Position numbers and translations under genes: made by a program
Assembly (NCBI RefSeq): GCF_022809355.1
Contig: NZ_JAKZMM010000005.1
Coordinates: 1 to 64,000, forward strand
Reading direction: 5' to 3'
Length of the DNA stretch: 64,000 bases
Source: Parabacteroides faecalis
Lineage (GTDB): Bacteria > Bacteroidota > Bacteroidia > Bacteroidales > Tannerellaceae
Shown: piece by piece, positions 23,781 through 60,538 of the stretch
Numbering within the stretch: position 1 is the first letter of the stretch
Layout of the letters: every line of letters starts with the position of its first letter
The notes under the pieces: model-generated
What the model was told of the DNA's origin: nothing
Seen by the model: the letters and a program-made list of their open reading frames with translations, nothing else
Databases searched by the model: none

Positions 23781-23880
23781 GATTCACGACTTTGGAGTGA
23801 ATCCTCCCCGAGCCGTCAGGCGAGTGGCAAGTTGTTTTGAGTGCCCGAATTTATTTCGGGTGCCTCAAAACACAACTTGC
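23781..23880. other. Candidate oriT: inverted repeats next to mobA
   Basis: Two inverted repeats lie between mobA and traA: GATTCAC/GTGAATC (23781-23803) and a large imperfect hairpin whose arms start GCAAGTTG (23827) and end CAACTTGC (23880) around CCGAATTTATTTCGG. Hairpins beside the relaxase genes are the usual form of an oriT. No nick site can be named from sequence alone, and the same structures could serve mob gene control. Confidence 0.45.
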
Positions 23881-23989
23881 TATGTTCGCTTGAACATGAA
23901 TTTTCCTTCCGTCAAATTGTGTTTGACCCTCCGGCCTCATTCTTCGGCTTCGGGAAAGCCCCGCAGCGGTGTCCGTTCCGTTGTCGGTG

Positions 23990-28395: not shown

Positions 28396-28397
28396 AA

Positions 28398-34465: not shown

Positions 34466-34466
34466 A

Positions 34467-35487: not shown

Positions 35488-35505
35488 ACAGCGTTCACAT
35501 GACAT

Positions 35506-35550
35506 GAAGCGAAGTCTGAAAGCCGTCCGGTTTTCAGGCTTCGCTTTTTT
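35506..35550 (+). terminator. Rho-independent terminator of the first tra unit
   Basis: GAAGCGAAGTCTGAAA and TTTTCAGGCTTCGC form a long stem followed by six T residues. It separates the traABCD unit from the traE unit. Confidence 0.82.
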
Positions 35551-35671
35551 GGTGATTCGAACCAATTGTCGCTTTTTCATTCCTCATGAAGAGTGCCCGT
35601 TTTTATTTTCTGTTTTTCCCATCCTTCCCTGCCCAAAATCCTCTTTTTTATCGTTTGGAAAATCCTTGCTG

Positions 35672-35698
35672 ATGTAACGTGATGACATACGATGACAC
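35672..35698. repeat. 27-base motif upstream of traE (copy 2)
   Basis: It matches the motif before traA at 26 of 27 positions (ATGTAACGTGATGACA then TACGATGACAC) and includes two GATGACA units. In this copy ACGAT ... ATCGT forms a small palindrome at its right edge. It lies 90 bases before traE. Confidence 0.7.
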
Positions 35699-35787
35699 GC
35701 ATCGTAAGGTTTGTAAATCAATGAATTAAACGCTATATATTCGCTGTCGAAATGATTTTTTGTTTCACCAATTAAAATTTTCGACAC

Positions 35788-36084
35788 ATGAAAAAAAGAT
35801 TCTTTTCGGCAGCTTTCATGCTGCTTGCGACAGTCGGGGCTTTCGCCCAGGGTAACGGTATCGGCGGCATTACGGAAGCCACCAACATGGTCACTTCCTA
35901 CTTCGACCCCGGCACCAAGTTGATTTACGCCATCGGAGCCGTCGTCGGCCTGATCGGGGGCGTGAAGGTCTATTCCAAGTTCTCCTCGGGCGACCCTGAC
36001 ACCTCGAAGACCGCCGCGAGCTGGTTCGGCGCATGTATCTTCCTTATCGTGGCCGCTACCATCTTACGCTCATTCTTCCTGTAA
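35788..36084 (+). CDS. traE: TraE, DUF4134 membrane protein
   Basis: A 98-residue protein with a cleavable signal (ends GAFAQG near residue 21) and two later hydrophobic helices (about 48-63 and 80-97), the DUF4134 layout. It resembles VirB2-like pilin subunits in size and layout and opens the traE-traQ operon. The gene is clearly GC-richer than the insertion to its left. Confidence 0.85.
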   Translation: MKKRFFSAAFMLLATVGAFAQGNGIGGITEATNMVTSYFDPGTKLIYAIGAVVGLIGGVKVYSKFSSGDPDTSKTAASWFGACIFLIVAATILRSFFL

Positions 36085-48068: not shown

Positions 48069-48125
48069 AATCTTGAAGTTTATTAAGTTAATACTATGTT
48101 GATGTTACTTTTCCTTTTGTTCCGG

Positions 48126-48416
48126 TCAGGTATGTATCTGCCATCCGTGGAACGGTTCCAGTGTGACGGCAAAAGACCTGTCCGGTATTCCGTGATAAAG
48201 CAGGCCTCCCACGATGCCGGTTCTTCCATCGGGATAGCGTTGCGTGAAGCCGAACGAATACGGGGCATGGTCGTAGTAGAGCGATATTTCATTGGGATGG
48301 TCGGGATTCTTCTCCCAGCTTTCCAGCCTGTCCAGGCACTTCTGGAACGAGGTGTCGCCGATGGACTCGGCATAGCGCTTTACATTCTCGAAATGTTCTT
48401 CATTCAGGATTTTCAT
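48126..48416 (-). CDS. DUF4120-type small protein
   Basis: A 96-residue soluble protein (KILNEEHFENVKRYAESIGD, GGLLYHGIPDRSFAVTLEP) that matches my memory of DUF4120, a Bacteroidales ICE family of unknown function. It is the first gene downstream of structured repeat copy 1. A CCGGCT/AGCCGG hairpin (48446-48462) lies 30 bases before its ATG and could affect translation. Confidence 0.65.
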   Translation of the reverse strand: MKILNEEHFENVKRYAESIGDTSFQKCLDRLESWEKNPDHPNEISLYYDHAPYSFGFTQRYPDGRTGIVGGLLYHGIPDRSFAVTLEPFHGWQIHT

Positions 48417-48490
48417 GACTTTTGCATTTTATCTGTTAAACACGTCCGGCTCCGGGAGCCGGTATTTTTATTTCTCGCCTGCCTGACTGT

Positions 48491-48616
48491 CCCGTGTCCG
48501 CATCCGGCAAGGTTTGGCGAAAGAAAATACCGCAGCAGCGGCGAGGATGATTTTCTTTCAGCCAACCCCGAAGGGACCTGACCTTGCAGGATACACAGGA
48601 CACGGGGCTACCTTTG
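48491..48616. repeat. Structured intergenic element, copy 1
   Basis: Nested stems: CCCGTGTCC (48491) with GGACACGGG (48598), GCAAGGT (48507) with ACCTTGC (48581), and TTGGC plus AAAGAAAAT (48514-48528) with ATTTTCTTT plus GCCAA (48550-48565). The apical part holds ATACCG and the invariant GCGAGGATGATTTT (48541-48554). TACCTTTG follows at 48609-48616. Two more copies occur at 55030 and 60114, with different stem bases but preserved pairing. The element lies upstream of the leftward DUF4120 gene. Confidence 0.8.
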
Positions 48617-48659
48617 CAGGGTGGGAAATAAAATAATAGCCCCGTTGTTGCCTGTTTTG

Positions 48660-49178
48660 TCAGATACGATTCAATTTTTGCATGGATTCCATCTCAGAAC
48701 GGATTTCATGTTCCAATGCCGTGTATTTTTCCTTTTTCATACGCAGTTTTTCACGAAACCCTACCAGCTGTTCATCTGTATTTTCATCAAAGAACAGGTT
48801 GTTTGTACGCTGGTATTGGATATACTCACGTTCTTTACGCTCCGCGATGGAGATTTGGGCTTTGGCTGCTGACAGTCTTGACAGTGAGGAGTTGAAATTG
48901 GTACGCAGTCCGGTACGTCTGTCATAATAGCTGTAATAGGTATTGATTTGCCTTTTGGGGTACAGGCATTGCAACCGGGCTTCACGCCAGCGGACTACCC
49001 AACGGTAACGCTTGTGCAGTTCCCTCGGAAGGTCATACGAATGAAGCCGGATTGGATTGCCGGCTTCATCCTTGCATTCGATGGAAATGAATACCCAGCG
49101 TTCAACCCGCAGTTCACGCTCGGCACGTGCCAGTTCCCTGGCATATTCCATCCAGTCGTCCATTCGTTCCTGTGCCAT
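48660..49178 (-). CDS. Hypothetical ICE protein with C-terminal coiled coil
   Basis: A 172-residue, highly charged soluble protein. Residues 95-170 are predicted helix with heptad character (SRLSAAKAQISIAERKEREY, LRMKKEKYTALEHEIRSEME). The N-terminal half is rich in Arg/Trp/Tyr. No domain is recognised. It is followed by structured repeat copy 1 and preceded by a 236-residue gene. Confidence 0.6.
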   Translation of the reverse strand: MAQERMDDWMEYARELARAERELRVERWVFISIECKDEAGNPIRLHSYDLPRELHKRYRWVVRWREARLQCLYPKRQINTYYSYYDRRTGLRTNFNSSLSRLSAAKAQISIAERKEREYIQYQRTNNLFFDENTDEQLVGFREKLRMKKEKYTALEHEIRSEMESMQKLNRI

Positions 49179-49189
49179 ATCGAGAAAGG

Positions 49190-49900
49190 TCAGCTTTCGG
49201 TAATTGTTTCCAGAAATGTCAGGTAAGCGGCAATAGCCTTGTGGCAGCCGGAAAAATCAGGCGTGCGACAACCGCGTTTCTTGTAGAAACGAATGCTCCC
49301 GGACTTATTCAACCCGCATACATGACGGTTCAATGTCCCTTTGGTCCGTATATGGATTTCAAAGCCGTCCCGTTTGGTTATTTCAAGGAACATATTTGCC
49401 GGGATGTATTCCCCGTTCAGAAACTTTTGTTTCTCCTCGTCAAGTTCCTGTTGCCACTTCGCTTCCTCCAGCCTGCGTTTCTCCTCTTCCTGTTCTTTTT
49501 GCTCCTGCCGTCTTTGTTCCTGTTTCTTCCGGTACGCTTCACGGGCTTGCAGCAAAGGAACTGTGTCAAGTCCGAGTTCTTCAAAAACACGGATCGACAA
49601 AAGGGAGACATGGTTCCCGTTTTCCGCATCCTGAAGCATATTCGCAATCCAGTTTTTGCAATACTTGACAAGTTTTTCTTTTTGTTCCTCCCTTCCAAGC
49701 ATTTCCCTGGAATACTGCCCGCAAGAGAAATAGATGTTTTCAACCTTGCAGACCACATGGAAATAATCATAGTTTTCATTCCCGTATTCGTTCTTGTCCG
49801 ATAACGAGAGATAGATGTTTTCCGCATACGCTTCCAGTTCCATGTACGGAGCCACGACGGTATTTCCGTCAAACTTGTATTTCAATACTTTCGCTTTCAT
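49190..49900 (-). CDS. Hypothetical ICE protein
   Basis: A 236-residue soluble protein. The first 120 residues look like a globular domain (LKYKFDGNTVVAPYMELEAY, FHVVCKVENIYFSC), residues 130-175 are a Glu/Gln/Lys-rich coiled coil, and the end is a short mixed domain with HIRTKGTLNRHVCGLNKSG. Function unknown. It starts 11 bases upstream of the 49178 gene and belongs to the leftward operon. Confidence 0.6.
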   Translation of the reverse strand: MKAKVLKYKFDGNTVVAPYMELEAYAENIYLSLSDKNEYGNENYDYFHVVCKVENIYFSCGQYSREMLGREEQKEKLVKYCKNWIANMLQDAENGNHVSLLSIRVFEELGLDTVPLLQAREAYRKKQEQRRQEQKEQEEEKRRLEEAKWQQELDEEKQKFLNGEYIPANMFLEITKRDGFEIHIRTKGTLNRHVCGLNKSGSIRFYKKRGCRTPDFSGCHKAIAAYLTFLETITES

Positions 49901-49932
49901 GATTCATTCTTGTTTTGACATTTCGAGTTGTC

Positions 49933-50955
49933 TCAGTTGGTTTGTATTCGCCTTGCCTGCCATGCCTGATGTGCAATAATGACCTCTTCGCGTTCTTGTT
50001 CCAGCAAAGTCTTCGTCTCCGGGGTATATCCGAGGAATTGGATGTATCCGCCATTATACCCTGTGAGTCTGCACCGCATTCCGGCCTGTTCTAATTTGTC
50101 AATCCGCTTTTGCGCGGTTTTGGCACTTGAATACTCTTTCGGCCAGAAATAATGCTCGCCTTGTGAGCCGTAATGGTCTTCCCCGAGTATCATCTCGCCG
50201 ATATGCCTCCTGTGTTCGATGAAACCGAACCGTGCCGTACCCAATGCCTGCCGCAGGGCCTTGTGCGCCGTACCTTCGGGGTGCTTGAACACTTCCTGCT
50301 TCTCCTTTCCCTTGCAGGCGAGTTTCGGCAATTCCACCTTGTAAGGTTTCCGGTAGCTGCCTATGCCCAATGTCAGGTAGAAATTGGTGTGGAAATAGTC
50401 CGTCATGGCATTGCTGTCATCGAAGTTGTACGACATGACAAAGTCGCAGACATTCATCATCACCTCCTTCGCACGGTCTGTAAGGTCAGGATTCCACTCT
50501 ATGTTGTAGTGGTTGATGGTGTCCTGCACCTTGCCGGATTCCTTGGTGAACGCCTCGAAGTCCGCGCTCATCAGCTTGATGTAAATGGAATTGTAATTCT
50601 CCCGTCTGACGGAGAACCTGTATCTGGGATAGGTTTCCTTGAGCCAGGTCCGCACCAGTTCCACAATCTCGGGAGCGTGCTGTCCCTTGTAATTGCGGCC
50701 TTTCCACCGGTATTCGTTATATACATACTCGGCATATTCCTTTGCCGTGGCCCCGGAATAGTCATATTCGTAGCCGGTGGTGTCAGCGGACATATTAGTG
50801 GAGTCCTTCCACACGTCATAAAGTTTTTCAAACTCGACGTTCACCTGCTGCATGACGGCAGTGTCACCACCCTTGTCCGGGTGGTGCTGCAATGCCAGAC
50901 GGCGGTACTCTTTCTTCAAGTCCGCCAGACTGTGTATGTTCTGAAAATAAGTCAT
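49933..50955 (-). CDS. J-domain protein with LPD29-like region
   Basis: A 340-residue protein. Residues 8-60 form a J domain with the HPD motif at 25-27 (HHPDKGGD), the DnaK-stimulating element. Residues about 75-130 (KEYAEYVYNEYRW, VRTWLKETYPRYRFSVRREN, NSIYIKLMSADFEAF) resemble the LPD29 domain of the polyvalent proteins of phages and conjugative elements. The rest is unassigned. It may recruit the host chaperone DnaK to incoming DNA or proteins; that role is inferred. Confidence 0.72.
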   Translation of the reverse strand: MTYFQNIHSLADLKKEYRRLALQHHPDKGGDTAVMQQVNVEFEKLYDVWKDSTNMSADTTGYEYDYSGATAKEYAEYVYNEYRWKGRNYKGQHAPEIVELVRTWLKETYPRYRFSVRRENYNSIYIKLMSADFEAFTKESGKVQDTINHYNIEWNPDLTDRAKEVMMNVCDFVMSYNFDDSNAMTDYFHTNFYLTLGIGSYRKPYKVELPKLACKGKEKQEVFKHPEGTAHKALRQALGTARFGFIEHRRHIGEMILGEDHYGSQGEHYFWPKEYSSAKTAQKRIDKLEQAGMRCRLTGYNGGYIQFLGYTPETKTLLEQEREEVIIAHQAWQARRIQTN

Positions 50956-50967
50956 AACCGTAAGTTT

Positions 50968-51177
50968 TTATGCCCCTGCAAGGCGATTGATAAAATATTC
51001 CTGATAGTCGAGGTCGAGACCGAGATTGCTGCAAGCGAGTTCAATGTCGCCTTCCCTCAAATCATCCACATCCTGTAATTCGTGCAGGTATTGAAGTTCG
51101 GAATCCAGATACTCCTGCGCTTCTGTCTTGTCGCAACTGCATGAGTTGCAGATTAAGTCAATGATATTTTCTCCCAT
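50968..51177 (-). CDS. Small hypothetical protein
   Basis: A 69-residue acidic protein with a CNSCSCDK cysteine cluster and YLDSELQYLHELQDVDDLRE. The ATG at 51177 is chosen because it follows the upstream stop by one base; longer in-frame starts overlap that gene. No family recognised. Confidence 0.5.
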   Translation of the reverse strand: MGENIIDLICNSCSCDKTEAQEYLDSELQYLHELQDVDDLREGDIELACSNLGLDLDYQEYFINRLAGA

Positions 51178-51178
51178 A

Positions 51179-51796
51179 TTATTCATTGTTAGAGGTATGT
51201 TTGTTATAGACATTTCGCTTTCCGTCGTAATCCAGATTATACCACCATTTATCGGTAGCACCGGCAAATGTCTGTGAACTATTGTTGGAAAGATAATCCG
51301 TTTCTTTCAGTCCTGTAATGCCTTCCAAAGTCCTGATGTCATTGCCGGTCCACCAACTTTGCATTATCTGCTTGAATTCTTCCAACGAACAGAAGTCAAC
51401 ATTCTCCTCACATTCTTCACACCATTTGCCATCACAATCATGTGCCGTATCGCAGATATACATTTCTGTATTCGCATCTATCCAGGCCTGTGTCTCCACT
51501 TGCCTTGAACCACATTCTTCGCATACCAGAACTTTAGAATCATCAGGCTCTTTTCTAAAAGCCTTGCCGTCATAAAGCGATACGGCACGTTCCACCAGCA
51601 AAGTCCGGCTGCATTCCGATAATTCGGTATAGAACCGTTCCGCCGCACCATAAATGGAATTTTCAGCCTGTGCGTTCCATTTTTCCCAAAAGTGCAGGTA
51701 GTCACCTCCGAACACGACTTTACATTCCTCCTTGCTCCATGCGTTCCACATATAGTAGAAGAAGCTGGAGACTGCATTTTCTGCGTGGTATTTCAT
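51179..51796 (-). CDS. Hypothetical protein with zinc-ribbon-like cysteines
   Basis: A 205-residue protein. The first third is aromatic-rich (SSFFYYMWNAWSKEECKVVF). A CEECGSRQVETQAWIDANTE segment and a later CEECEENVDFC supply four or more paired cysteines, likely binding zinc. The C-terminal third contains FAGATDKWWYNL. Function unknown. The start overlaps the 51793 gene by 4 bases. Confidence 0.55.
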   Translation of the reverse strand: MKYHAENAVSSFFYYMWNAWSKEECKVVFGGDYLHFWEKWNAQAENSIYGAAERFYTELSECSRTLLVERAVSLYDGKAFRKEPDDSKVLVCEECGSRQVETQAWIDANTEMYICDTAHDCDGKWCEECEENVDFCSLEEFKQIMQSWWTGNDIRTLEGITGLKETDYLSNNSSQTFAGATDKWWYNLDYDGKRNVYNKHTSNNE

Positions 51797-52386
51797 GATT
51801 TTTCAGTTTCAGGTTCAACATTTTCTTTGCCTTCCAATTGCCTCCATACGACATCATACATTTCGTGGAGCCAGTCGATGTTCCTCGTTCCGAGTTCAAA
51901 CGGACTGTGACATTCCACTTCATAACCGCTCTCTTTCTCCTCGGCAAAAACGGTCAGGCTGTTTTCCGTTACCCGAAGTCCTGTTACCATACATTCATAC
52001 GGATCACCGTTCTTACTGAACCATATCACCCAGACCGGGTCGTATCCATCATCTTCAGGGAACCGTATCTCGGTCATGCAGTGTGCTTGAAGCAATTGTC
52101 GTATCGCTTCAATGATATCCGCTCGTAATTCCTCAATTCTCCCGCTAAAATCAATGGATGCCGAAGTCCCTTTCCCGTTTCGTTGAGCCACAGAAAGAAT
52201 CTGTGTGTCGGGGTGAACCCCGAAATTCCAGTCTACATCTTCATCATCGAGAGTAGTGTGGATATTGCCGCCCAGAACCAGCCCACAGTCCTCAGACACC
52301 ATTTGTCTTGCTTCATCGTGGTCTTCAGCCACTACCGTGTAAGTGCCCTCGAAGGCATACCTTACTCTTACATCATACTTTGCCAT
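51793..52386 (-). CDS. Hypothetical ICE protein
   Basis: A 197-residue acidic soluble protein. The N terminus (KYDVRVRYAFEGTYTVVAED) resembles a small alpha-beta domain, and FPEDDGYDPVWVIWF is a conserved-looking segment in the middle. No family recognised. It is translationally coupled to the next gene. Confidence 0.55.
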   Translation of the reverse strand: MAKYDVRVRYAFEGTYTVVAEDHDEARQMVSEDCGLVLGGNIHTTLDDEDVDWNFGVHPDTQILSVAQRNGKGTSASIDFSGRIEELRADIIEAIRQLLQAHCMTEIRFPEDDGYDPVWVIWFSKNGDPYECMVTGLRVTENSLTVFAEEKESGYEVECHSPFELGTRNIDWLHEMYDVVWRQLEGKENVEPETEKS

Positions 52387-52423
52387 AATTCTTATGATTT
52401 GATTGTTTGTAATTGATTTAACA

Positions 52424-53353
52424 TTAAGAGACTATGCTGACAGGATTGTTGAAAAATGAATCGTCCACGCCATACACATGCTGTATGGAATAGTCGTACT
52501 TGGATCGTTCATCGTCCAGACGGAAACGGAAGCCGTTACAGCCTTTGACTTCCAGCTTGAGCTTCACATCTTGTTTCAGTTCCATTTCAAGCAGGCTTCC
52601 GCCGCCATACGTGGAACTGAACAGCCCGCAACAGTTCCCTTTGGGGATAATGACCTCTTTCAGCGAGAAGTCTGCATCATACAACTCTTTCAGACTTACC
52701 TTTCCGATATAGGTCAGCAGGTTCGCACCGCAACAGGAATTGATAAGTTCCTCGTAGAATTGCTCGTATGAGACCTGTTCTTTCCCGTTCCTGCTTTTCC
52801 GGTTCGGGAAACGCCCGTAAACTTTGTAGCCGTGGCTCGTCAGCAGTTTCTTTACTTGCGCCGGATTGAGGTTCAGGCTGTCTACCATGTCCCCGAAATA
52901 GGATTCCTCGTAACTGTAACCGCCCTGCGATTCAAACCAGTTGGAGTTGATGCAGTCGTAGTCGGAAAGCATCTCCACCCGGATGGGAATGTCATCCGTG
53001 TACCTTATCAGGTCTTTCACTACGTCCGAATCGTTCCTGCTGTAAATCTCGTCCCGGATTGCATCCTCATGTTCATCGAAAAAGGCATCGACCTCGTGTT
53101 CGTCAAAGTCGTTGAATACAAAGCATTCTTCTTTCAGCTTTTCCATAATCCCATGAACAGCTTCATATTCCGCATCGCCATACCATTCGCCCGCCTTTTC
53201 CCACAGGCAATCGCAATTCCGCCTGTCCAGACATTTCCGGATGATGTCAAGGTGGTTGTCAAGGTTGTCGTTATAATCCGTCCATACCAGCGTGTAGGAT
53301 GGTTCCATGAGGGATTTCACGAAATCCAACGTAAGCGTTCTCTGTTCTTCCAT
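52424..53353 (-). CDS. Hypothetical ICE protein
   Basis: A 309-residue, strongly acidic protein (many Asp/Glu/Tyr). Segments such as FNDFDEHEVDAFFDEHEDAI are unusually negative, and the second half carries KEVIIPKGNCCGLFSSTYGG. Highly acidic ICE proteins are sometimes DNA mimics, but nothing here proves that. No family recognised. Confidence 0.55.
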   Translation of the reverse strand: MEEQRTLTLDFVKSLMEPSYTLVWTDYNDNLDNHLDIIRKCLDRRNCDCLWEKAGEWYGDAEYEAVHGIMEKLKEECFVFNDFDEHEVDAFFDEHEDAIRDEIYSRNDSDVVKDLIRYTDDIPIRVEMLSDYDCINSNWFESQGGYSYEESYFGDMVDSLNLNPAQVKKLLTSHGYKVYGRFPNRKSRNGKEQVSYEQFYEELINSCCGANLLTYIGKVSLKELYDADFSLKEVIIPKGNCCGLFSSTYGGGSLLEMELKQDVKLKLEVKGCNGFRFRLDDERSKYDYSIQHVYGVDDSFFNNPVSIVS

Positions 53354-53443
53354 TTTTCTTTACCTGTGTACGGCAGGGTTCTGTTTCCCGTACATACCGT
53401 TATAAATGACAGAAGCGACCTTCCGGCCGCCTCCGTATTACTA

Positions 53444-53731
53444 TTACCCATACAGTTCTTTCACTATCTCGTCATACCTTTCCTTTACCATCTCCGTCTT
53501 ACGGTTGAAGTGAAAATATGCGGTGTACCTGTAACCGGTACTTGGCTCTCCGCCGCATTGTCGTATTGCCGTGTCAATATCCCAGTCAATATCACCAATG
53601 CCGAGTGATATGCTTGTGCCTTGCAACAGACAACGGGCAAGCCGGAGCGCGGAATCCTTCTTGTTTTCCTTGCGAAGCCTGTCGAGAGCCATCATTGCAA
53701 TTTGCCGGTTTGAAATCTTCAACTCTTCCAT
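53444..53731 (-). CDS. Small hypothetical protein
   Basis: A 95-residue protein with a basic first helix (QIAMMALDRLRKENKKDSAL) and GDIDWDIDTAIRQCGG. No family recognised. It lies in the middle of the leftward accessory operon, 90 bases upstream of the 53353 gene. Confidence 0.5.
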   Translation of the reverse strand: MEELKISNRQIAMMALDRLRKENKKDSALRLARCLLQGTSISLGIGDIDWDIDTAIRQCGGEPSTGYRYTAYFHFNRKTEMVKERYDEIVKELYG

Positions 53732-53748
53732 ATATTCATCTGTTTGGG

Positions 53749-54117
53749 TCAGACAATCCCGGCCAGTTGTTTGAACCGCGCTACGATCTCATTGCACTTG
53801 CTTTCGGCAAGCCCTTCATGTTTTCGGCAAATAGCACAATATTCCTTCCAGGGCCTGCCTTCAAGCTCGTGTTCGTATGATGACATGACCAATTCCGGAT
53901 ATTCCTCAAAAAGGATATTGAACGCTTTTCTCCATTTGCGAACCTGCCACGAACCGCTTGCTACCAATTTTATGAATTCAAACATCTGTTTGTCCGTTTT
54001 TACATCCAAGTCATAAAAATGGTCTGTTTTCGGCCATACGTTGTTGGAATGCTGCCAGGTCTCAATCTGCTTGTTTTTGGCATTGTATGCCATTTTTGTG
54101 ATTATCTGGTAACTCAT
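53749..54117 (-). CDS. Small hypothetical protein
   Basis: A 122-residue basic/aromatic protein (QIETWQHSNNVWPKTDHFYD, GSWQVRKWRKAFNILFEEYP). It has a CAICRKHEG cysteine pair near residue 95. No family recognised. Confidence 0.5.
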   Translation of the reverse strand: MSYQIITKMAYNAKNKQIETWQHSNNVWPKTDHFYDLDVKTDKQMFEFIKLVASGSWQVRKWRKAFNILFEEYPELVMSSYEHELEGRPWKEYCAICRKHEGLAESKCNEIVARFKQLAGIV

Positions 54118-54133
54118 GTTGATATATATGTTT

Positions 54134-54448
54134 TCAGTTCATTATCATATTGTTCCTTTTCCTGTCGCGGCTTGCCAGCATACCGAAATGGATGCTGAAT
54201 ATGCGCTGTCCGAAGCAGATTGGTGAATTGTACTCCATGCGCTGCCACAGCGTGAAATGGTCGTTTGCGTAAGACCAGCGGAAATGTCCCGACAGCGAGC
54301 CGAAGGTGGGATTGACGTTTCTTCCGATAAGCATCCGGTTCACGTCCACGATGTTGTCGGAGGTCAGGATGATGTTCAGGATTTCCACGAAAGCCATCTG
54401 CGTGAAACTGTCTGTCGGTAAGACCGGTCCGAGAAAATTGATGTTCAT
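54134..54448 (-). CDS. Small hypothetical protein
   Basis: A 104-residue protein beginning NINFLGPVLPTDSFTQMAFV. Its end is basic (ASRDRKRNN). The ATG at 54448 is chosen because longer frames overlap the ArdA-like gene. No family recognised. Confidence 0.45.
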   Translation of the reverse strand: MNINFLGPVLPTDSFTQMAFVEILNIILTSDNIVDVNRMLIGRNVNPTFGSLSGHFRWSYANDHFTLWQRMEYNSPICFGQRIFSIHFGMLASRDRKRNNMIMN

Positions 54449-54461
54449 AAGCGTTTGTCTT

Positions 54462-54971
54462 TTAATCGTAATTGTCATCGAATACTTCAAAACGAGGGAA
54501 ACAGTTATCGAAATAGTTGCCTGATATGCCCGGATAATACAGCAGGCTGTCATCCCCGCTGTCCGGGCAGGAGTCATCGTCGATATAGGTCACGTTCCCG
54601 AACAGTTCCAGGTAATGCGCTACCAGCAGGTGCGGGTCTTCCGTACTGATATCGTGTCCGTAACGGTCGCACCAGTCGAAGAAAAAATCCTTGTCGGGTT
54701 CCTCCAGCTGCTCCATTGCCTCCCTTATATCAAAGAAGTTGGGACAAAGCCATTCCCTGTTGATAAGCGGGTCCGGGATTTCCTCCCATTTCGTATACCT
54801 GTACTCCGGTGTTTCCTCTTCGGGAAACAATTCGGAGCAGGTGCATAGGAATTCTCCCATGTCGCCGAAATCGGACATACGCAGCAGGCTGTCCCTTTCC
54901 TGCCGGATGTCGATGAGATGCTGCGTGGTCACTGCCACTTCTGCCTGATTCAAGTCCATAATCTTTTTCAT
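54462..54971 (-). CDS. ArdA-like anti-restriction protein
   Basis: A 169-residue, very acidic protein. The middle part (FLCTCSELFPEEETPEYRYT, WEEIPDPLINREWLCPNFFD, then acidic EAMEQLEEPDKDFFFDWCDR) follows the ArdA pattern, where an elongated acidic dimer mimics B-form DNA and blocks type I restriction enzymes. The N-terminal ArdA domain is poorly conserved, so this may be a distant relative. It is the first gene after structured repeat copy 2, an arrangement that would make it a gene expressed early after transfer if the repeat is a promoter element. Confidence 0.65.
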   Translation of the reverse strand: MKKIMDLNQAEVAVTTQHLIDIRQERDSLLRMSDFGDMGEFLCTCSELFPEEETPEYRYTKWEEIPDPLINREWLCPNFFDIREAMEQLEEPDKDFFFDWCDRYGHDISTEDPHLLVAHYLELFGNVTYIDDDSCPDSGDDSLLYYPGISGNYFDNCFPRFEVFDDNYD

Positions 54972-55029
54972 TACAGTTATTGATGCGGAACCGGGGATTT
55001 TATTCCACAGGCTCCAAAAGGTCCGGGCC

Positions 55030-55143
55030 CCGGCTGTGCAGGGTTTTTCGGGGAAATACCGGAGCCTCCGGCGAGGATGATTTTCCCGAAAACCGCTTGC
55101 GGCTTGACCTTGCCCAGCCGGTAAAGGCGCGGAGTTACCTTTG
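55030..55143. repeat. Structured intergenic element, copy 2
   Basis: Stems: CCGGCTG (55030) with CAGCCGG (55115), GCAGGGT (55038) with ACCTTGC (55107), TTTTCGGGGAAAT (55045) with ATTTTCCCGAAAA (55080). The apex contains ATACCG, a CCGGAGCCTCCGG hairpin and the invariant GCGAGGATGATTTT (55071-55084). TACCTTTG follows at 55136-55143. Stem sequences differ from the other two copies while pairing is kept. It lies upstream of the ArdA-like gene. Confidence 0.8.
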
Positions 55144-55184
55144 CCTGTGGAATGGAATCTGCGGTTATTCATGTTTTTTCATTT

Positions 55185-58100
55185 TTAGCCGGTTATGCGC
55201 TGGCTTCCCCAGCTGATATGTATCTTGCCCTCCCTGTCACGTTCCCTGACCAGCAGGCTCTCGATGACGGACATAGTGACGTCAAACTCCTCGAAGATGT
55301 CTGACTGTTCTTTCACCTCACCACTTTTGATGAACTCGTTCAGCCGCTCCTTGGTAAGTACCAGTGCCATCAGGTTCTGCTCCACGGAATCCTTGTAGGT
55401 GACATAATGTACGTCCTTCAGTTCTTTGGAATCAAGACGTATGAAGCGGAAGTAGAACTGCTCCATCTTCGGGATATTCCATTGGAGCGATTCCAGAATC
55501 ACATCGTTACAGGTCGGGATGTTCACCGAACTGCTCAGACTCTGCTGTGTGCAGACCAGTATGCCGTTGACGGTGGAATCGAACTCAGTCACGATGCTCT
55601 GCCGTTTCTTGAAGGTCACGTCGCCTTTGACCACAAACACCGGACGGTTCGGAAAGCATTCGCGGAGATGATTCTCGTAAAGGTCGAACGCCGCTATGGA
55701 GGTGCAGCCGACAGCCACCTTGCCGGGAATCTTCCGTATCAGTTTCTCGATATATCTTGTCTTGTTCGGAATCCCGTCGCCGAAATAGCCATCTATCAGG
55801 TGCGGGACGGAGCACGCCTTGATGAGCAGCTTGATCTGTCGCATGAGCCTAAGCCCGGCATCCTTCTTCGCGTCTCCCGTACTGTTGTAATACAGCTCGC
55901 AAATGCGGCAGAATTCCTCGATAATGACGCGGTAAACCTCGTGCTCGCCTTCAGCCGGGCTGACCGTATGGGTACGTATCTTGTACTTCTCGCCTGCGAA
56001 GTCCCTGAACTTGCGGGTGATGATGGTCTTTCCGATAAGCTCCGCCAGTTCCTCCTTGTTGTACACGTCCTGGTTCTGCTTCTCTATGCCGAATACGGTG
56101 GATTTTCCGGGGCAATGACAGGAACGGAAAAGCACATGGCCTCTGAAAGCCGGGAACGGCTCTCCGTAATGCCGGTTGCTTTCTTCCTCTATCTCCTTGT
56201 CTCTGTTCTCGTGGTATATCCGGTCGCACCAGCAGACCATGTTGACGGAATTGTTGTACAGCAGTTCAAATTGGCTGTACAGTTCCGCGATGTTGTTCCG
56301 CGTGGTGGTTCCCGTGTCGAGTATCTTGTATTTGAGACGGCGGAAAATGCTCAAGACAAGCCTTGTCCGTTGTGAAGACGGGTTGGTTATCTCATCGGAT
56401 TCATCGAAAACCAGGCAGAGTTTCCCGGATGTGCGTCTGACAAATTTTGACAGTCCACGCTTCAGTTTGGAGAGTATGGAGGTGGAGAGGATGAGTAATA
56501 CACCTTCAGGTACTGTTTCCAAATCGGCATTACTTCTGACTATACGGAATTTCTCCCGATTGATTGTCAGAAACGGTATCCAAGTCATATTGGTGGCAAT
56601 GGCCGGAGCCAGAATGACGGCATTGCGTACCTTATGGAATTTAAGCAGGTATTTTGCCCGATGATACACGGCTGCCGTCTTGCCGGAACCTTGCTGCCAG
56701 TTCAGCAAAGCATAACGCTTCTGCAAGACCAGGTTCAGGTCGTGTTTTTGAAGTGATGTAAACTCACATATCTCACCGTCCTTGTTTCTGAAAGTGGTGC
56801 GATCGAGGTATTCTTGCAGAAATGGGTCTGGTTGCATTTCTGTAAACTGCCGGTTCTGGTTTTCGTATTGCCTGCGTTTCTTGCGTATCAGTTTTTCCGC
56901 TGCACGTATCTGGCGCATGTTCTTTTCAGTCGGCAGTTCCGGTAAGGGAAGTTCGCTCCGTCCCAGCACAAGGTCATTGATACTTGCCGCCTTGTGTGAA
57001 ACCTTATCCAGCAGACGGGGTGCATACTGTTTCAGCTTGAAGCCGTAGGAGGTCTTCACCAGGGCCACTTCCTTGCGTGGTACGGTATTCTGCGAGGTGA
57101 TATACCTGCGGATGATACCGAGGACTTTGGTCGTGGTCAGCTTGTTCTTCTCCCATTGGTTTACCTGTTCCCGGGTGGCATTTTCCGGCGGTTTCTGGTT
57201 ACGGAACTTCGTGACCAGTGCTTCCGCTTTGTCTATGTGTTTGTTCAGCTTGGTGTGGGCTTTCAACTCGTACATGTACTTGGCGAGTTTGTACTCGAAT
57301 ACCTCCAGTTCCTCCTTGTCAATCCGGTTGGTCTCGCGCATCAGGTCGAAGCGTATTTTGTGCTTCATCAGCCTTGCCTCGCGGATGCGCTCTTTCAATT
57401 CAGACATGGAGATGAACTCTTCCGCGTTGTAGGCCTGCATCTCGATATGCAGCGACTTGCGCAGGAACACCATTACTTTCGTGTTGAAGTTGTGGACTCC
57501 CGTGGAAGCGAAGGCATTGGGATTTAACTTCACTTGCCCGATGAACGAGAACCGGCTGTTGATGCCCGTTATGCGTGTCTTCTCCCAGAACTCGCTCTGC
57601 ATGAACGAGCTGGGAACAATGACCATCAGGATGCCTGCCGGGTTGAGCACATCGTAGGCTTTTTCCATATAGTATTCCTGTGACAGCCTGTAATCAAATT
57701 TCAGGTTGAAAGGCGGATTGCCGATAATGATGTCAAAGCGTTGTTCCGGGTAATATTGCCGGATGTCGCATTTCTCGATATGGGCGTCCGGGTAGAGATA
57801 CCTTGCAACGGCCACCGCCTTTCCGTCTATGTCGAAACCGTAGGTGTTATGATGGTTCGGAAGGTGGTTGAAGAAGTTTCCCATGCCGCAGCACATGTCG
57901 AGTATCATCTCGGAAGAGGCCGGAGACAGCATATCCACTATGTCTCTGCATACTTCATGCGGGGTGAAGAACTGTCCCATCTCATACTCTTTCTTGGCCT
58001 CCGCGTACTCGTTGTAATTGGCAAAGTCGGACTGTTTCAGGTTGTGCAGCCCGCCGATGCCGGTATAGCAGTTGTAGATGCTCTCCGCCGGAATCAGATC

Positions 58101-58187
58101 CTTGCCGGAGTCTATGGCGAAAAGAATCTTCTCGTTGACCTCGGCCCGCCTGTCCTGTGGTATCTGTTGGGGTATGATGGCGTACAT
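55185..58187 (-). CDS. DNA methylase-helicase fusion (DarB-like)
   Basis: A 1000-residue fusion. Residues 70-250 are an N6-adenine DNA methyltransferase: QFFTPHEVCRDIVDML, SAM motif ILDMCCGMGNF at 95-105 and catalytic NPPF at 157-160. Residues 475-960 are an SF2/SNF2-like helicase with GSGKT at 500-504, FDESDE at 594-599 and a C-terminal half with VFVVKGDVTFKKRQSIVTEF and VCTQQSLSSSVNIP. Phage P1 DarB has the same pairing and protects DNA from type I restriction. No specificity subunit or nuclease is nearby, so restriction itself is unlikely. Confidence 0.85.
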   Translation of the reverse strand: MYAIIPQQIPQDRRAEVNEKILFAIDSGKDLIPAESIYNCYTGIGGLHNLKQSDFANYNEYAEAKKEYEMGQFFTPHEVCRDIVDMLSPASSEMILDMCCGMGNFFNHLPNHHNTYGFDIDGKAVAVARYLYPDAHIEKCDIRQYYPEQRFDIIIGNPPFNLKFDYRLSQEYYMEKAYDVLNPAGILMVIVPSSFMQSEFWEKTRITGINSRFSFIGQVKLNPNAFASTGVHNFNTKVMVFLRKSLHIEMQAYNAEEFISMSELKERIREARLMKHKIRFDLMRETNRIDKEELEVFEYKLAKYMYELKAHTKLNKHIDKAEALVTKFRNQKPPENATREQVNQWEKNKLTTTKVLGIIRRYITSQNTVPRKEVALVKTSYGFKLKQYAPRLLDKVSHKAASINDLVLGRSELPLPELPTEKNMRQIRAAEKLIRKKRRQYENQNRQFTEMQPDPFLQEYLDRTTFRNKDGEICEFTSLQKHDLNLVLQKRYALLNWQQGSGKTAAVYHRAKYLLKFHKVRNAVILAPAIATNMTWIPFLTINREKFRIVRSNADLETVPEGVLLILSTSILSKLKRGLSKFVRRTSGKLCLVFDESDEITNPSSQRTRLVLSIFRRLKYKILDTGTTTRNNIAELYSQFELLYNNSVNMVCWCDRIYHENRDKEIEEESNRHYGEPFPAFRGHVLFRSCHCPGKSTVFGIEKQNQDVYNKEELAELIGKTIITRKFRDFAGEKYKIRTHTVSPAEGEHEVYRVIIEEFCRICELYYNSTGDAKKDAGLRLMRQIKLLIKACSVPHLIDGYFGDGIPNKTRYIEKLIRKIPGKVAVGCTSIAAFDLYENHLRECFPNRPVFVVKGDVTFKKRQSIVTEFDSTVNGILVCTQQSLSSSVNIPTCNDVILESLQWNIPKMEQFYFRFIRLDSKELKDVHYVTYKDSVEQNLMALVLTKERLNEFIKSGEVKEQSDIFEEFDVTMSVIESLLVRERDREGKIHISWGSQRITG

Positions 58188-58266
58188 ATCTTTAATAGTT
58201 TACGGTTGGAAATGAAGACACCCCGCAAGAGTTGCCTTACGGGGTGCTGTGGGATTCTTCTCATGG

Positions 58267-59208
58267 TCAGTTCTCCGGTAATGTGATTTCATCCAATCGG
58301 AGACGCTTGAAGCAGCTCTCGGCTGCCGCGCTGTCCTTGAATTTGACGTCGATACGTCCGTTCTTGTAGAATCGGATTTGCTCGGCGTTGGTGGTCGTGA
58401 GGTCGTACCAGTCATTGACAGACACGTCGTTGTCATCGAAACGGATAATCATTTTCGAGTTGCCGCACAGTACATCATCCGCACCGTAAGCGATACCCGC
58501 GCATAGGGTTTCCAGCTCTCCACTGTAATTGTAACTGATTTTGCACCGTTGGTGGTATTGTATGTAATAATCATCGAAGCGAATGATTTCGGGAAAGACA
58601 ATCTTGTCCTTCTTCAGCTCCGTTTTGACCTTGCTCCAGCAGGAAGGCTTGACTACCTTTGCGACTCTGGCAAGCAGTTCTTCCACTGCCGTTTCCCGGA
58701 AACTCTTGCCACCTAAATGCTCGATAACCGCATCCACGTATGTCCCATAGACCGGACGGAAGCCCATGCGGAGTGTCTTTTCGTTTATCCTTTGTTCCGG
58801 CACCGACACGTTGTACGTCCTGTTGAAGTAGGCGATGATACGGTTGGCGAAGTTAGAGTTGGCGTTGTGGTTCTTGTCTACCAAATCGTTCAGCACATCG
58901 AACGGCTTGAACTCGTTGTGCGAATAATCGTCCTTACCGTTTCTGAGCGAGTAAAGGTCACGCATGGATATTTTCCCATTGTCGTCGTATGAGAAGTCCC
59001 GTTCTGTTCGGTATTGTTCCGCCTCTTCCTTGAAGATGGTATACCAGCGGTCTATCCGGTCAAGCGTCTTGTAGAGCATGTCCTGCTGGTTCTGACAAAA
59101 CAGGCGGTCTTGCTCGGTAATCTTGTCCTCGTTTCTTACTTGTACGCTCAATATTCCTGAAAGCAGGTCGGGAGCGTTGCCGGGTTTGAATGATGTTGTC
59201 GTTTGCAT
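58267..59208 (-). CDS. DUF4942 domain protein
   Basis: A 313-residue soluble protein matching DUF4942, a domain often found with methylase-helicase proteins in Bacteroidales ICEs. Features are FANRIIAYFNRTYNVSVPEQ, VYGTYVDAVIEHLGGKSF and KFKDSAAAESCFKRLRLDEI at the end. Function is unknown. It sits 79 bases upstream of the methylase-helicase gene and is probably cotranscribed. Confidence 0.78.
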   Translation of the reverse strand: MQTTTSFKPGNAPDLLSGILSVQVRNEDKITEQDRLFCQNQQDMLYKTLDRIDRWYTIFKEEAEQYRTERDFSYDDNGKISMRDLYSLRNGKDDYSHNEFKPFDVLNDLVDKNHNANSNFANRIIAYFNRTYNVSVPEQRINEKTLRMGFRPVYGTYVDAVIEHLGGKSFRETAVEELLARVAKVVKPSCWSKVKTELKKDKIVFPEIIRFDDYYIQYHQRCKISYNYSGELETLCAGIAYGADDVLCGNSKMIIRFDDNDVSVNDWYDLTTTNAEQIRFYKNGRIDVKFKDSAAAESCFKRLRLDEITLPEN

Positions 59209-59227
59209 ATCTGTTTGATTTTAAGTG

Positions 59228-60046
59228 TTAGAAATCCTGTGATTGGATACGGTGGAAATAGGTGATGTGCTTCTCCATGTCCTTGACAATCTTCACCTGC
59301 TCGGGATGGAAATTAAGCCTTCGCTCCACTGCCGGGACATCAATCTTTTCCCATTCCGACAGAGGCAGGAAGACATATTCCCTGCGGAAGCACCATACCA
59401 CGATCTGGTTTTTCCAATTCCCCTTGAATACCGTTCCCTCATAGTCTTGCAGGAATTGCCGGAAGTCCTCTTCATTGTGAAAAGCGATATCAAGACTTTG
59501 GTAGAGGTTTCTCGCTTCCAGGTCTTTGTGAAGATAAAAACGGCGGTATGTCTCTGTCGTGAAATCACCATAGAGCGGTTCCGGCTCACGGTAAATCCAT
59601 TGTGGGACTTTTGCCGTGAATGTAACTGATCCGTGAGCGCACGATCCGCAATGTCCCCAGTCTTTGAATGCTCCTTCCGTCCAACCGTTGAATTTCAGAT
59701 CATCCGTTTTTACATGGTGGAAAGCTCCACCGCTGACGCTCAGGCGGATATTATCCGCAGATTGCCATACGAATGGGACATACGGCTGTTCGCAGATGGA
59801 AAGCAGGCCTTTCTTTTCATCCATACTGTCTATGAGTGCATTGCCGTAATAGTCCCCATGACGGCTGAGATAAATCAGCCTGTCACCGGTTTGCGGTGTG
59901 ATTTCCGAGCGCGTCTGCTCTATAAGTTCGACATAACGGTTGGCCATATCCACATCCTCCTGCGTCAGCCAATGTTCATGGTCGTACAAAACATTCAGTG
60001 TCTTGAGCGTTTCAATACCGTACTTGTTCTTTGTTGCCTGTAACAT
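59228..60046 (-). CDS. DUF4121-type protein
   Basis: A 272-residue soluble protein that fits my memory of DUF4121. Landmarks are TGDRLIYLSRHGDYYGNALI, GHCGSCAHGSVTFTAKVPQW and FKGNWKNQIVVWCFRREYVF. Function is unknown. It is the first gene of the leftward accessory operon, right after structured repeat copy 3. Confidence 0.65.
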   Translation of the reverse strand: MLQATKNKYGIETLKTLNVLYDHEHWLTQEDVDMANRYVELIEQTRSEITPQTGDRLIYLSRHGDYYGNALIDSMDEKKGLLSICEQPYVPFVWQSADNIRLSVSGGAFHHVKTDDLKFNGWTEGAFKDWGHCGSCAHGSVTFTAKVPQWIYREPEPLYGDFTTETYRRFYLHKDLEARNLYQSLDIAFHNEEDFRQFLQDYEGTVFKGNWKNQIVVWCFRREYVFLPLSEWEKIDVPAVERRLNFHPEQVKIVKDMEKHITYFHRIQSQDF

Positions 60047-60066
60047 GACATTGTTTTTTTGTTAGT

Positions 60067-60084
60067 CCGGCTTTTCGGGGCCGG
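60067..60084. repeat. Small hairpin before the DUF4121 start
   Basis: CCGGC and GCCGG arms around TTTTCGGG lie 20 bases before the ATG. A comparable CCGGCT/AGCCGG hairpin precedes the DUF4120 gene, so a second small hairpin recurs between the structured element and the start codon. Confidence 0.5.
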
Positions 60085-60113
60085 AGTTCCCGTAACTACA
60101 GGCTTTAAAAGGT

Positions 60114-60235
60114 CGTGTTCCGTACATGCAAGGTTGGCGGGAAAAATACCGAAGCCCTCCGGGGCGAGGATGATTTTTCCACGCCACCCGGAGGGCTTGA
60201 CCTTGCTTGTACGATAAGAACACGAGTTACCTTTG
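60114..60235. repeat. Structured intergenic element, copy 3
   Basis: Stems: CGTGTTC (60114) with GAACACG (60218), CGTACA (60121) with TGTACG (60208), GCAAGGT (60128) with ACCTTGC (60200), and TGGCGGGAAAAAT (60135) with ATTTTTCCACGCCA (60173). A further pair AAGCCCTCCGGG with CCCGGAGGGCTT interleaves with the last, giving a pseudoknot or two alternative folds. The invariant GCGAGGATGATTTT is at 60164-60177 and TACCTTTG at 60228-60235. It lies upstream of the DUF4121 gene and is the best-formed copy. Confidence 0.82.
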
Positions 60236-60538
60236 CCTGTGAGTTACGTGAACTCGGCTACGGTACAGATGTCATTCTTGATTTGGATTATTTTTGAAAT
60301 CACCGTGAAGATTATACCCGGAAAATTCCGGTATTCAGAGGAAAAACATTATCTTTGCAGAAAGATAAAGAGTTATTTGACAGCATGAGGAATATAGTGA
60401 TTCTAAACAGTTTGCATTTTTCTTATCCGTTGCCCATTCTCATGCGAGTTTCATATAATACACTGATAGTCAAACAAAATACTTCTGACTATTACAAATA
60501 TAGTAAATTTTTAATAAGAAATATAGGTGTGATAAATA
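60236..60538. other. ICE right end / chromosome junction zone
   Basis: No gene seen. The ICE-like sequence ends somewhere in here and chromosomal DNA begins before the lpxA terminator. TATCTTTGC at 60350-60358 resembles the core of CTnDOT att sites (GTAnnTTTGC) but lacks the first G; it is also a promoter box. The exact junction needs the left end for comparison. Confidence 0.4.

Follow-up and report, generated by a model that had tools for sequence, protein, structure and literature searches.

Three related hairpin elements lie in the window (the whole stretch of DNA analysed, 64,000 nucleotides), and each of them is probably a promoter that works on single-stranded DNA in the manner of Frpo, a reading to which we give a probability of about 0.77. 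Conjugation is one of the main ways in which gut Bacteroidales exchange genes, and single-strand promoters are known from E. coli plasmids; to our knowledge, little is known of how an ICE becomes established in a new cell in gut Bacteroidales.

We propose that when the transferred strand of the ICE, putatively the + strand, enters a recipient, the element would fold into a hairpin whose 3' arm would supply a Bacteroidota housekeeping promoter (-33 CCTTG, -7 TAnnTTTG) and whose 5' arm would be the template. RNA polymerase with sigma-ABfr would start near the base of the hairpin and copy the 5' flank, and the mRNA of the leftward operon would be made ahead of second-strand synthesis, its 5' ends being predicted, from folds read by eye, to lie some 35-65 nt before the start codons (ATG) at 54971, 60046 and 48416. 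Once both strands are present this promoter faces away from the gene, which would leave the operon silent or reliant on other promoters. If polymerase binding, transcription, its timing and a role of the operons in establishment in the recipient are as we infer, the hairpins mark, from sequence, the ICE genes that are read first in the recipient, and many unannotated ICE genes become candidates for anti-defence or establishment functions. Single-strand promoters would then occur in a phylum whose housekeeping sigma factor differs, and a type strain, for example Phocaeicola vulgatus ATCC 8482, would allow the question to be tested.

Hairpin elements in the window

48466..48633, + strand: hairpin copy A, proposed single-strand promoter of the DUF4120 unit (fold, outer pair 48466/48633; covariance model 105.6 bits)
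54989..55166, + strand: hairpin copy B, proposed single-strand promoter of the unit headed by 54462-54971 (fold, outer pair 54989/55166; covariance model 106.2 bits)
60076..60262, + strand: hairpin copy C, proposed single-strand promoter of the DUF4121 / MTase-helicase unit (fold, outer pair 60076/60262; covariance model 103.7 bits)
48527..48554, + strand: apical A+T-rich stem and conserved loop ATACCG...GCGAGGATGATTTT of copy A, possibly UP-element-like
55056..55084, + strand: apical stem and loop of copy B
60146..60177, + strand: apical stem and loop of copy C
48582..48586, + strand: -33 box CCTTG of copy A, spacer 22
48609..48616, + strand: -7 box TACCTTTG of copy A, open in the folded strand (mean pairing 0.08)
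55108..55112, + strand: -33 box CCTTG of copy B, spacer 23
55136..55143, + strand: -7 box TACCTTTG of copy B, mostly paired (0.78)
60201..60205, + strand: -33 box CCTTG of copy C, spacer 22
60228..60235, + strand: -7 box TACCTTTG of copy C, mostly paired (0.78)

An earlier note on this DNA had described three related structured elements, and the analysis confirms that they are real. The 14-mer GCGAGGATGATTTT occurs exactly three times in the window, always on the + strand (at 48541, 55071 and 60164), and a search with up to two mismatches returns the same three matches only (shuffles average 0.85, and 3 of 100 reach three). Copies A, B and C align with a mean column identity of 71%, and their folding z scores are -6.0, -3.1 and -9.2 on the + strand and -6.5, -3.4 and -8.8 on the - strand. 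A covariance model of 47 representatives, run on the window up to E = 5, finds only these three copies (E 3e-26 to 1.4e-25), which are part of its own training set. Rfam, proposed in the earlier note as a check for known RNA motifs, holds no match to the elements at gathering score, nor up to E = 5 across 48400-60400.

ATACCG, the GCARGGT/ACCTTGC stem and TACCTTTG lie at the positions that had been given for them. The architecture described earlier thus stands and its ends do not, the hairpins being longer since the base stem goes on beyond TACCTTTG. A side hairpin gives them a branched top, and in the minimum-energy fold of copy C the inner stems are paired differently.

The family, its fold and covariation

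The family comprises at least 93 sequence-read copies, mostly from Bacteroidales records; divergent relatives occur in further orders of the same class. The 93 copies, from 78 source loci, were gathered over genome contigs by the pattern ATACCG...GCGAGGATGATTT, which is therefore conserved by construction, as search bait; the stems and promoter boxes are not. A stem filter set aside 36 of 146 places (129 distinct) having at least 100 nt on each side, and places closer to a locus end were excluded (7 at a slightly smaller margin). Most of the places filtered out resemble chance hits within coding sequence, but at least L058 (one place) and L059 seem genuine. Four of the 78 source loci (L022, L043, L086 and L093) come from MAGs labelled Clostridia.

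Among the 47 representatives, 90.1% of cells are paired against 78.4% in shuffles, 18 of 29 pairs show changes on both sides, and none of 500 shuffles reaches any of five measures. The covariance-model search suggested earlier found further copies with pairing kept. A further set of 25 matches (16 from other orders and 9 from Bacteroidales) contains 24 distinct copies, which are 86.6% paired with 21 of 29 pairs changed on both sides, in an alignment fitted to the model. By computation, then, the fold is there, and the covariation between stem arms that had been claimed from three copies is real in the family and in the further copies. Two exceptions are L167, a weak model match that does not fold as an element, and L121, a relative with neither a recognisable -7 box nor a nearby ORF.

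The window's own genome has 16 model matches at E <= 0.001 and Phocaeicola vulgatus ATCC 8482 (type strain) has 10, while one mapped ICE carries seven copies on a single strand, one of them before a leftward gene set among rightward tra genes. Such numbers per genome, together with inverted ends and mobile surroundings, would suit a dispersed repeat or miniature transposon with long inverted ends; the sequences, however, diverge widely and yet keep their pairing, and the near-constant orientation to gene and oriT and the narrow spacing are not expected of transposed repeats, which leaves this explanation very improbable.

Promoter-like motif on the 3' arm

The 3' arm of the elements carries a promoter of Bacteroidota type, CCTTG (-33) and TAnnTTTG (-7) with a spacer of mostly 22 nt. 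The consensus, that of the Bacteroidota housekeeping factor sigma-ABfr, was taken from the accessible text of PMC7366714. Judged by its sequence, the stem presents the boxes of the host housekeeping sigma factor in their Bacteroidota form. Of the 47 representatives, 42 have a relaxed -7 box at a spacer of 19-24 (shuffled arms, 0.7%) and 28 have a perfect one (shuffled arms, 0.05%).

Across the 93 copies the best -7 match is perfect in 58, one position off in 32 and worse in 3. When a best match of at least 4 of 6 is demanded, which 88 of the 93 copies give, the A and the TT are each conserved in 88, the third T in 84 and the G in 87; the first T is weaker (59) and the two n positions are free. 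The spacer is 22 in 60 of 93 copies and falls within 19-24 in all 93 when 18-24 is allowed, or in 88 of 93 when 14-29 is allowed. Reading the 25 further matches at one fixed position of the model gives the A of the -7 box in 24 and the G in all 25. TAnnTTTG was found on the gene-ward strand near the gene in none of the 47 representatives, and AAAGGT stands on the arm partnering the -7 box in 5 of 47, that is, the partner arm is not conserved.

In the fold, CCTTG is paired at 0.97-0.99, and the first seven positions of the -7 box average 0.35-0.45 between strongly paired flanks on both sides. The box is mostly open in 64 of 93 copies (about two thirds), copy A included, as if it were pre-melted; a second kind, to which copies B and C belong, has it mostly paired (>0.75; 23 of 93). 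Pairs of boxes resembling those of E. coli sigma70 were found on the 3' arm of 2 of 47 representatives, a count that does not discriminate, since at the cut-off used the same scan finds none in F Frpo and so cannot place the F boxes.

Genes beside the elements

48126..48416, - strand: DUF4120 gene, first after copy A (Pfam PF13496, E 5.9e-58)
54462..54971, - strand: gene for an acidic 169-aa protein of no known family, first after copy B
59228..60046, - strand: DUF4121 gene, first after copy C (Pfam PF13497, E 6.5e-67)
55185..58187, - strand: N6-methyltransferase/helicase fusion, third gene of the copy-C unit (Pfam; PHROG 24008)

Each copy lies just upstream of a leftward gene, as had been observed before, and the Pfam matches bear out the names DUF4120 and DUF4121. 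The label ArdA-like for 54462-54971 is not supported, the protein having no match in Pfam, NCBIfam, PADLOC or PHROGs at E 0.001. When the threshold is relaxed to E 1, one of six homologues weakly matches Pfam DUF7569 (E 0.039), and the sole match of the profile in the PDB has E 0.99. Its predicted model matches no known fold, a weak test with a model of low confidence (pLDDT 50).

Computation finds the same position before genes in the family. A leftward ATG ORF of at least 60 aa begins within 160 nt of 86 of 87 elements, and a rightward one on the other side of 41 of 86; the 58 leftward ORFs of at least 90 aa start at a median of 45 nt from the element. The downstream ORFs fall into many groups, 29 in a crude clustering that includes some wrong frames; since the ATG-distance test picks out the longest ORF, which is at times in a wrong frame (as for copy A), the 29 clusters overstate the gene groups. 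A first gene calling (leftward 65, rightward 24, none 4; n = 93) was misled by shadow ORFs, and the ATG-distance test was used instead.

These counts bear on the idea that the motif acts on double-stranded DNA as a conventional promoter whose rightward transcript is an antisense or small RNA. The -33/-7 motif does stand on the + strand at near-normal spacing, but rightward ORFs are far from matching the leftward ones (41/86 against 86/87), and such a promoter gives no reason for a long covarying hairpin or for a fixed relation to the oriT motif; we regard it as highly unlikely.

The strand selected for pairing

On the + strand of the 47 representatives, in wobble-free folds, 1x1 mismatches are G.T in 41 cases and A.C in 9, an excess of G.T with p = 0.002 against composition when mismatches are treated as independent. 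The further set alone gives 17:7 (p = 0.40), which is not significant. L167 and the duplicate L177 were excluded from the strand test. With DNA parameters the + strand fold is the more stable in 40/47 and 19/19. The wobble-free alignment fold keeps only 6 pairs, with 2 G.T and 2 A.C, and is uninformative on strand. This bias towards G.T over A.C on the + strand points to selection on the gene's template strand; taken over the family, + (the template for the leftward gene) is the strand selected for pairing.

The window copies by themselves do not show a preference. Copy A is slightly more stable on the - strand (DNA -54.5 vs -54.3 on +; RNA -64.1 vs -60.4), and the G.T/A.C mismatch counts of copies A, B and C are 0/0, 2/0 and 0/0.

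Selection on the template strand argues against a leader RNA, in which the hairpin would sit in the 5' region of the mRNA of the leftward genes as a regulator or terminator. The elements do lie between genes, directly upstream of start codons, and in the three copies of the window the sense strand has folds of similar quality, slightly better for copy A. Against this, wobble-type changes favour the antisense strand by 41:9, and TAnnTTTG is conserved on that strand, which a leader does not explain, and its partner arm is not conserved; the Rfam search gave no match, and the downstream ORFs are diverse even if their clustering overstates it. We consider a leader decidedly unlikely. Of the two roles offered in the earlier note, an mRNA leader and an Frpo-like single-strand promoter, it is the latter that agrees with the promoter motif and with the strand and orientation tests.

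Orientation to the putative oriT and relaxase

23827..23895, + strand: putative oriT, a large inverted repeat followed by CTTGCTATGTTCnnnnGAAC
22038..23291, - strand: relaxase MobB, on the strand opposite the elements (Pfam PF03432; NCBIfam NF041325 Bacteroid_MobB, E 4.9e-169)

The architecture of the putative oriT, with conserved sequence on one side of the inverted repeat, suggests that + is the transferred strand. We compared 154 elements (the best 150 of 213 model matches and 4 of 31 matches from further genomes, the others of which have no listed oriT motif within 60 kb). The putative motif lies within 60 kb of 86 of them and is on the strand of the element in 83 and on the opposite strand in 3. 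A relaxase gene lies within 80 kb of 102 elements among the best 150 of 213 matches, and the element is opposite the nearest one in 94 and on its strand in 8; in 14 further genomes, 10 of 13 elements are opposite and 3 of 13 on the same strand. The strand agreement with oriT motif and relaxase is thus a computed result. Among the 10 papers listed, out of 581 that contain a short string from the oriT motif, none looked relevant by title.

Copies A-C are 24.6-36.2 kb behind the putative nick and are therefore not the first DNA to enter. In some relatives the distance is 2-5 kb; in others it reaches up to 49 kb on this side of the putative nick or up to 55 kb on the opposite one.

The strand agreement would fit equally well a single-strand origin of the sso/ssi kind, at which RNA polymerase uses the hairpin mainly to make a primer for the second strand and the nearby genes are incidental. 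Several copies per element could speed conversion, and Frpo is reported to prime DNA synthesis in vitro in the available portion of PMC7690428. A priming site, however, needs no gene beside it, and a leftward ATG ORF was found within 160 nt of 86 of 87 elements; nor does this explanation suit seven copies among leftward genes in one mapped ICE. As the main function it seems unlikely, and priming may be a second role of the proposed single-strand promoters rather than a rival to them.

Comparison with known systems

We know of no tie between sso or ssi sites and gene starts. Common to the elements and these sites is a single strand that folds and that RNA polymerase presumably recognises, as far as the available portion of PMC7690428 describes the sites. 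With Frpo/ssi of F and ColIb-P9, compared on the F plasmid, the elements share a long imperfect hairpin on the transferred strand (putatively so here), an A+T-rich apical stem and more than one copy per element. The geometry is also that of F Frpo, where on the T-strand the gene lies 5' of the hairpin. Located by position and mutual similarity, F Frpo1 and Frpo2 fold at -74.3 vs -67.7 and -68.8 vs -65.4, the T-strand being ahead, with the same sign as the elements. Homology to Frpo is not detectable, the covariance model giving one match on the F leading region (E 4.6, 7.2 bits). Unlike Frpo, the elements have Bacteroidota -33/-7 boxes in a different host phylum, occur in up to seven copies in one mapped ICE and also far from oriT, and have a conserved apical ATACCG...GCGAGGATGATTTT in the Bacteroidales copies read, a motif that was the search bait.

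Samuel et al. 2024 (PMC11541004), in the text at hand, propose T-strand promoters before anti-defence operons and list Frpo-like candidates; unlike our elements, these were sought by known Frpo/ssi sequences and the sigma70 -35/-10 consensus, and a term count of the main text gives no occurrence of 'Bacteroid'. The EGeRS of pLS20 plasmids are described in the accessible part of PMC8708921 as regulatory sequences common to several establishment operons; the authors there oppose single-strand promoters, partly by the nicked strand, whereas for the elements here the strand agrees. In the literature searched we found no description of these elements or of single-strand promoters in Bacteroidota.

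A broader proposal, which we advance tentatively and at somewhat less than even odds, is that the elements constitute a class of single-strand promoters spanning the phylum, evolutionarily independent of Frpo and suited to sigma-ABfr, that would switch on an entire establishment programme in cells receiving Bacteroidota conjugative elements, with up to seven operons per ICE, mostly for proteins of unknown function. The pre-melted -7 loop in most copies would restrict them to single strands, and ATACCG...GCGAGGATGATTTT would be a dedicated contact for the RNA polymerase alpha subunit or a single-strand-binding factor.

A blastn search of plasmids with copy B gave no match. In a phage collection copy C matched four faecal records titled 'Bacteriophage sp.', which lack annotation and could be fragments of ICEs.

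The ICE and its three hairpin elements

The window contains a Bacteroides MobB-type ICE, its relaxase matching PF03432 and NCBIfam Bacteroid_MobB. After the relaxase gene comes a mostly rightward block, which we take, with one annotated relative as a guide, to be the tra block, and then a leftward block; the genes beyond 60588 are presumably chromosomal lpx genes. Hairpin copies A, B and C split the leftward block into three units: unit C with DUF4121, a 313-aa protein and a methyltransferase-helicase, unit B with an acidic 169-aa protein and the genes after it, and unit A with DUF4120 and a 307-aa protein.

Features of the ICE
18667-21023, -, group II intron (Rfam RF00029, RF02012)
18788-20440, RT/maturase of the group II intron
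22038-23291, -, relaxase gene
23827-23895, +, putative oriT: large inverted repeat, then conserved CTTGCTATGTTCnnnnGAAC
24390-47068, mostly +, rightward block after the relaxase gene
27108-34841, -, leftward insertion inside the rightward block
47145-60046, -, leftward block after the rightward block
48466-48633, +, copy A hairpin with base stem (fold, outer pair)
54989-55166, +, copy B hairpin with base stem (fold, outer pair)
55185-58187, -, N6-methyltransferase/helicase fusion, 1000 aa (PHROG 24008, full length)
60076-60262, +, copy C hairpin with base stem (fold, outer pair)

The three structured intergenic elements claimed in the earlier note are real: a conserved 14-mer occurs exactly three times in the window, always on the + strand, the copies align with 71% mean column identity, and they fold far better than shuffled sequences (z = -6.0, -3.1 and -9.2 for A, B and C). 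In the Rfam comparison that the note had suggested, no known RNA family matched any of the three. Between copy A's base and the start codon there is a small GC-rich hairpin (48446-48462), which would therefore belong to the predicted 5' UTR; many relatives visibly carry comparable GC-rich repeats.

Relatives and covariation

The exact pattern is present in 4 of 295 Bacteroidales species, the window's own genome counted, and that genome holds 8 copies by exact pattern and 16 by R1, a covariance model built from 47 representatives. A scan of genome contigs gave at least 115 stretches with the pattern; 129 distinct places were read, of which 93 were kept after a stem filter. R1 matched all 18 genomes preselected for having copies (1 to 24 each, 213 in total, the best 150 listed) and, under stricter filters, 16 of 395 genomes across the phylum (own counted), 12 from other orders of the class. 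In those other-order copies the core is often AAAATACTACCC..GGGTGGAGATTTT or near that, and the position of TACCTTTG is unchanged.

Copies beyond the window keep the pairing, and the covariation first claimed from three copies is upheld on larger sets. Among the 47 representatives 90.1% of cells pair, against 78.4% in shuffles and at most 59.7% with slid partners, two-sided changes occur in 18 of 29 pairs, and none of 500 shuffles matched the real value on any measure; in 24 further distinct copies, in an alignment fitted to R1, the values are 86.6% and 21 of 29.

A circular 250-kb plasmid record from Parabacteroides (L183), which has tra genes and is typed as non-mobilizable by MOB-suite, carries three R1 copies (440-591, 7949-8095 and 8519-8673). 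A second plasmid record, L182, with a DUF4121 gene, gave one weak match only (15.9 bits, E 0.04). Copy C also matches four unannotated faecal 'Bacteriophage sp.' records, MT837091.1, MT836373.1, MT840077.1 and MT836551.1 (identity 89-93% for three of them, 71% for the fourth); these records may therefore be pieces of ICEs that were deposited as phage.

The strand under selection

On a single strand G.T is better tolerated than A.C, and the reverse holds for the opposite strand. Folds without wobble pairs were used in the strand test, so that neither strand was favoured. On the + strand G.T mismatches outnumbered A.C by 41 to 9 in the 47 representatives; in a second set of 19, drawn from the further copies as their representatives, the ratio is 17 to 7. 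Relative to base composition the excess gives p = 0.002 in the first set, a value that is optimistic because the sequences are related and mismatches were counted as independent, and p = 0.40 in the second. Under DNA parameters the + strand folds more stably in 40/47 and 19/19. Over the family, mismatch bias and stability therefore place selection on the strand that serves the leftward gene as template. This preference belongs to the family, and the three window copies alone would not reveal it: the - strand is slightly more stable in copy A (-54.5 vs -54.3), the + strand in copies B (-57.9 vs -52.2) and C (-65.4 vs -64.7). The T-strand is likewise the more stable, with the same sign, in Frpo1 and Frpo2, the single-strand promoters of the F plasmid.

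Promoter boxes on the 3' arm

The 3' arm of the 93 copies carries, in order, CCTTG (the -33 box), a spacer of 19-24 nt (18-24 nt permitted in the search; 22 nt in 60/93) and TAnnTTTG (the -7 box), which is perfect in 58 and one position off in 32. In the 88 of 93 copies left after a filter, variation in the -7 box falls at free positions of the consensus of sigma-ABfr, the Bacteroidota housekeeping sigma factor, given as TAnnTTTG at -7 and TTTG near -33 (PMC7366714). A relaxed -7 box stands at the set spacing in 42 of the 47 representatives, against 0.7% of shuffled arms, and none of the 47 has TAnnTTTG close to the gene on its gene-ward strand. Within the fold, pairing is 0.97-0.99 for CCTTG and averages 0.35-0.45 for the -7 box, whose flanks are closed. 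Two kinds of -7 box lie behind this average, with mean pairing below 0.5 in 64/93 and above 0.75 in 23/93; in the window the box is open in copy A (0.08) and mostly paired in B and C (0.78).

Neighbouring genes, relaxase and putative oriT

Nearly all of the elements with enough flank, 86 of 87, have a leftward ORF with an ATG start, 60 aa or longer, no more than 160 nt away, and such an ORF lies on the other side in 41/86; for the 58 leftward ORFs of at least 90 aa the median start is 45 nt from the element. Among 10 hand-picked first-gene representatives compared with Pfam, one exceeded the cut-off of its family (YpsA/SLOG); among 10 compared with NCBIfam, none did.

For 102 of the best 150 elements listed, a relaxase lies no more than 80 kb away on the contig; 94 of these elements are on the strand opposite the nearest relaxase gene and 8 on the same; for 30 of 35 relaxases all their elements among the matches listed are opposite. 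Among 13 elements from 14 further genomes, 10 are opposite; the other three adjoin relaxases of 306-313 aa. Six elements (on genome contigs G105:C68, G059:C25, G301:C124 and G303:C35) share the strand of a short nearest relaxase (306-315 aa); counter-cases near relaxases of 315 aa (G323) and 321 aa (G000:C21) do not. The same-strand elements at short relaxases may belong to a different oriT layout, or the neighbouring relaxases may be unrelated to them.

In 15 of 21 regions read, the stretch upstream of mobA has a large inverted repeat with TTGCTATGTTCnnnnGAAC after it on the + strand; the number is 17 if TTGCTCTGTTC is accepted, and four regions lack the motif. The exact pattern of this putative oriT motif occurs in 19/26 genomes. 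At known nic sites the cut strand carries such a repeat on the 5' side of the nick; from this architecture the + strand would be the transferred strand. Among the matches listed, 86 of 154 elements have the motif within 60 kb, on the same strand in 83, and element strand is uniform at 24/26 motif sites. One ICE has seven copies, each on the same strand as the motif. One of these, situated 4.1-4.2 kb beyond the motif, stands before a leftward gene surrounded by rightward tra genes; the product of that leftward gene is identical over its first 40 residues to the YpsA-domain protein of another locus read (L117).

Predicted function and precedent

The proposal that the hairpins are a new Bacteroidota form of single-strand promoter is well supported by this comparative evidence. 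An Frpo-like promoter on single-stranded DNA was one option of the earlier note; boxes, strand, orientation and genes now speak for it, with polymerase predicted to act on the folded strand. The transferred strand would fold and thereby assemble the promoter, with the 3' arm as non-template and the 5' arm as template, and transcription would exit the hairpin base into the leftward gene; in double-stranded DNA the same promoter would be directed away from the gene. The apical stem is A+T-rich, as in F Frpo, and would correspond to the UP element marked there by Samuel et al. By analogy with Frpo, for which second-strand priming has been proposed (PMC7690428), the hairpins may also prime second-strand synthesis.

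Promoters of the Frpo type have been described in F and ColIb-P9 (PMC9849209, PMC7690428). The wide search by Samuel et al. relied on known Frpo sequences together with sigma70 boxes; the main text has no occurrence of Bacteroid*. Literature on Frpo or single-strand promoters in Bacteroid* gave no description of the hairpins; novelty is not thereby proved, because preprints and most subscription papers were outside the search. The papers found to combine Frpo with Bacteroid, PMC9024699 among them, were judged unrelated. A literature search on DUF4120/DUF4121 found nothing, and the passages found on the fragilis ArdA protein describe no Bacteroides promoter.

Other features of the ICE

DarB-like antirestriction proteins matched the methyltransferase/helicase fusion weakly and locally only. 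Leftward genes (27108-34841) occupy a gap, from 26816 to 35788, in the rightward tra block; some of their ORFs look like a transposase set of the IS66 type and like an ABC transporter. Within the mob operon the group II intron comes directly after a YWFCY gene (21078-22001), and it is probably the gene for the coupling protein that the intron interrupts.
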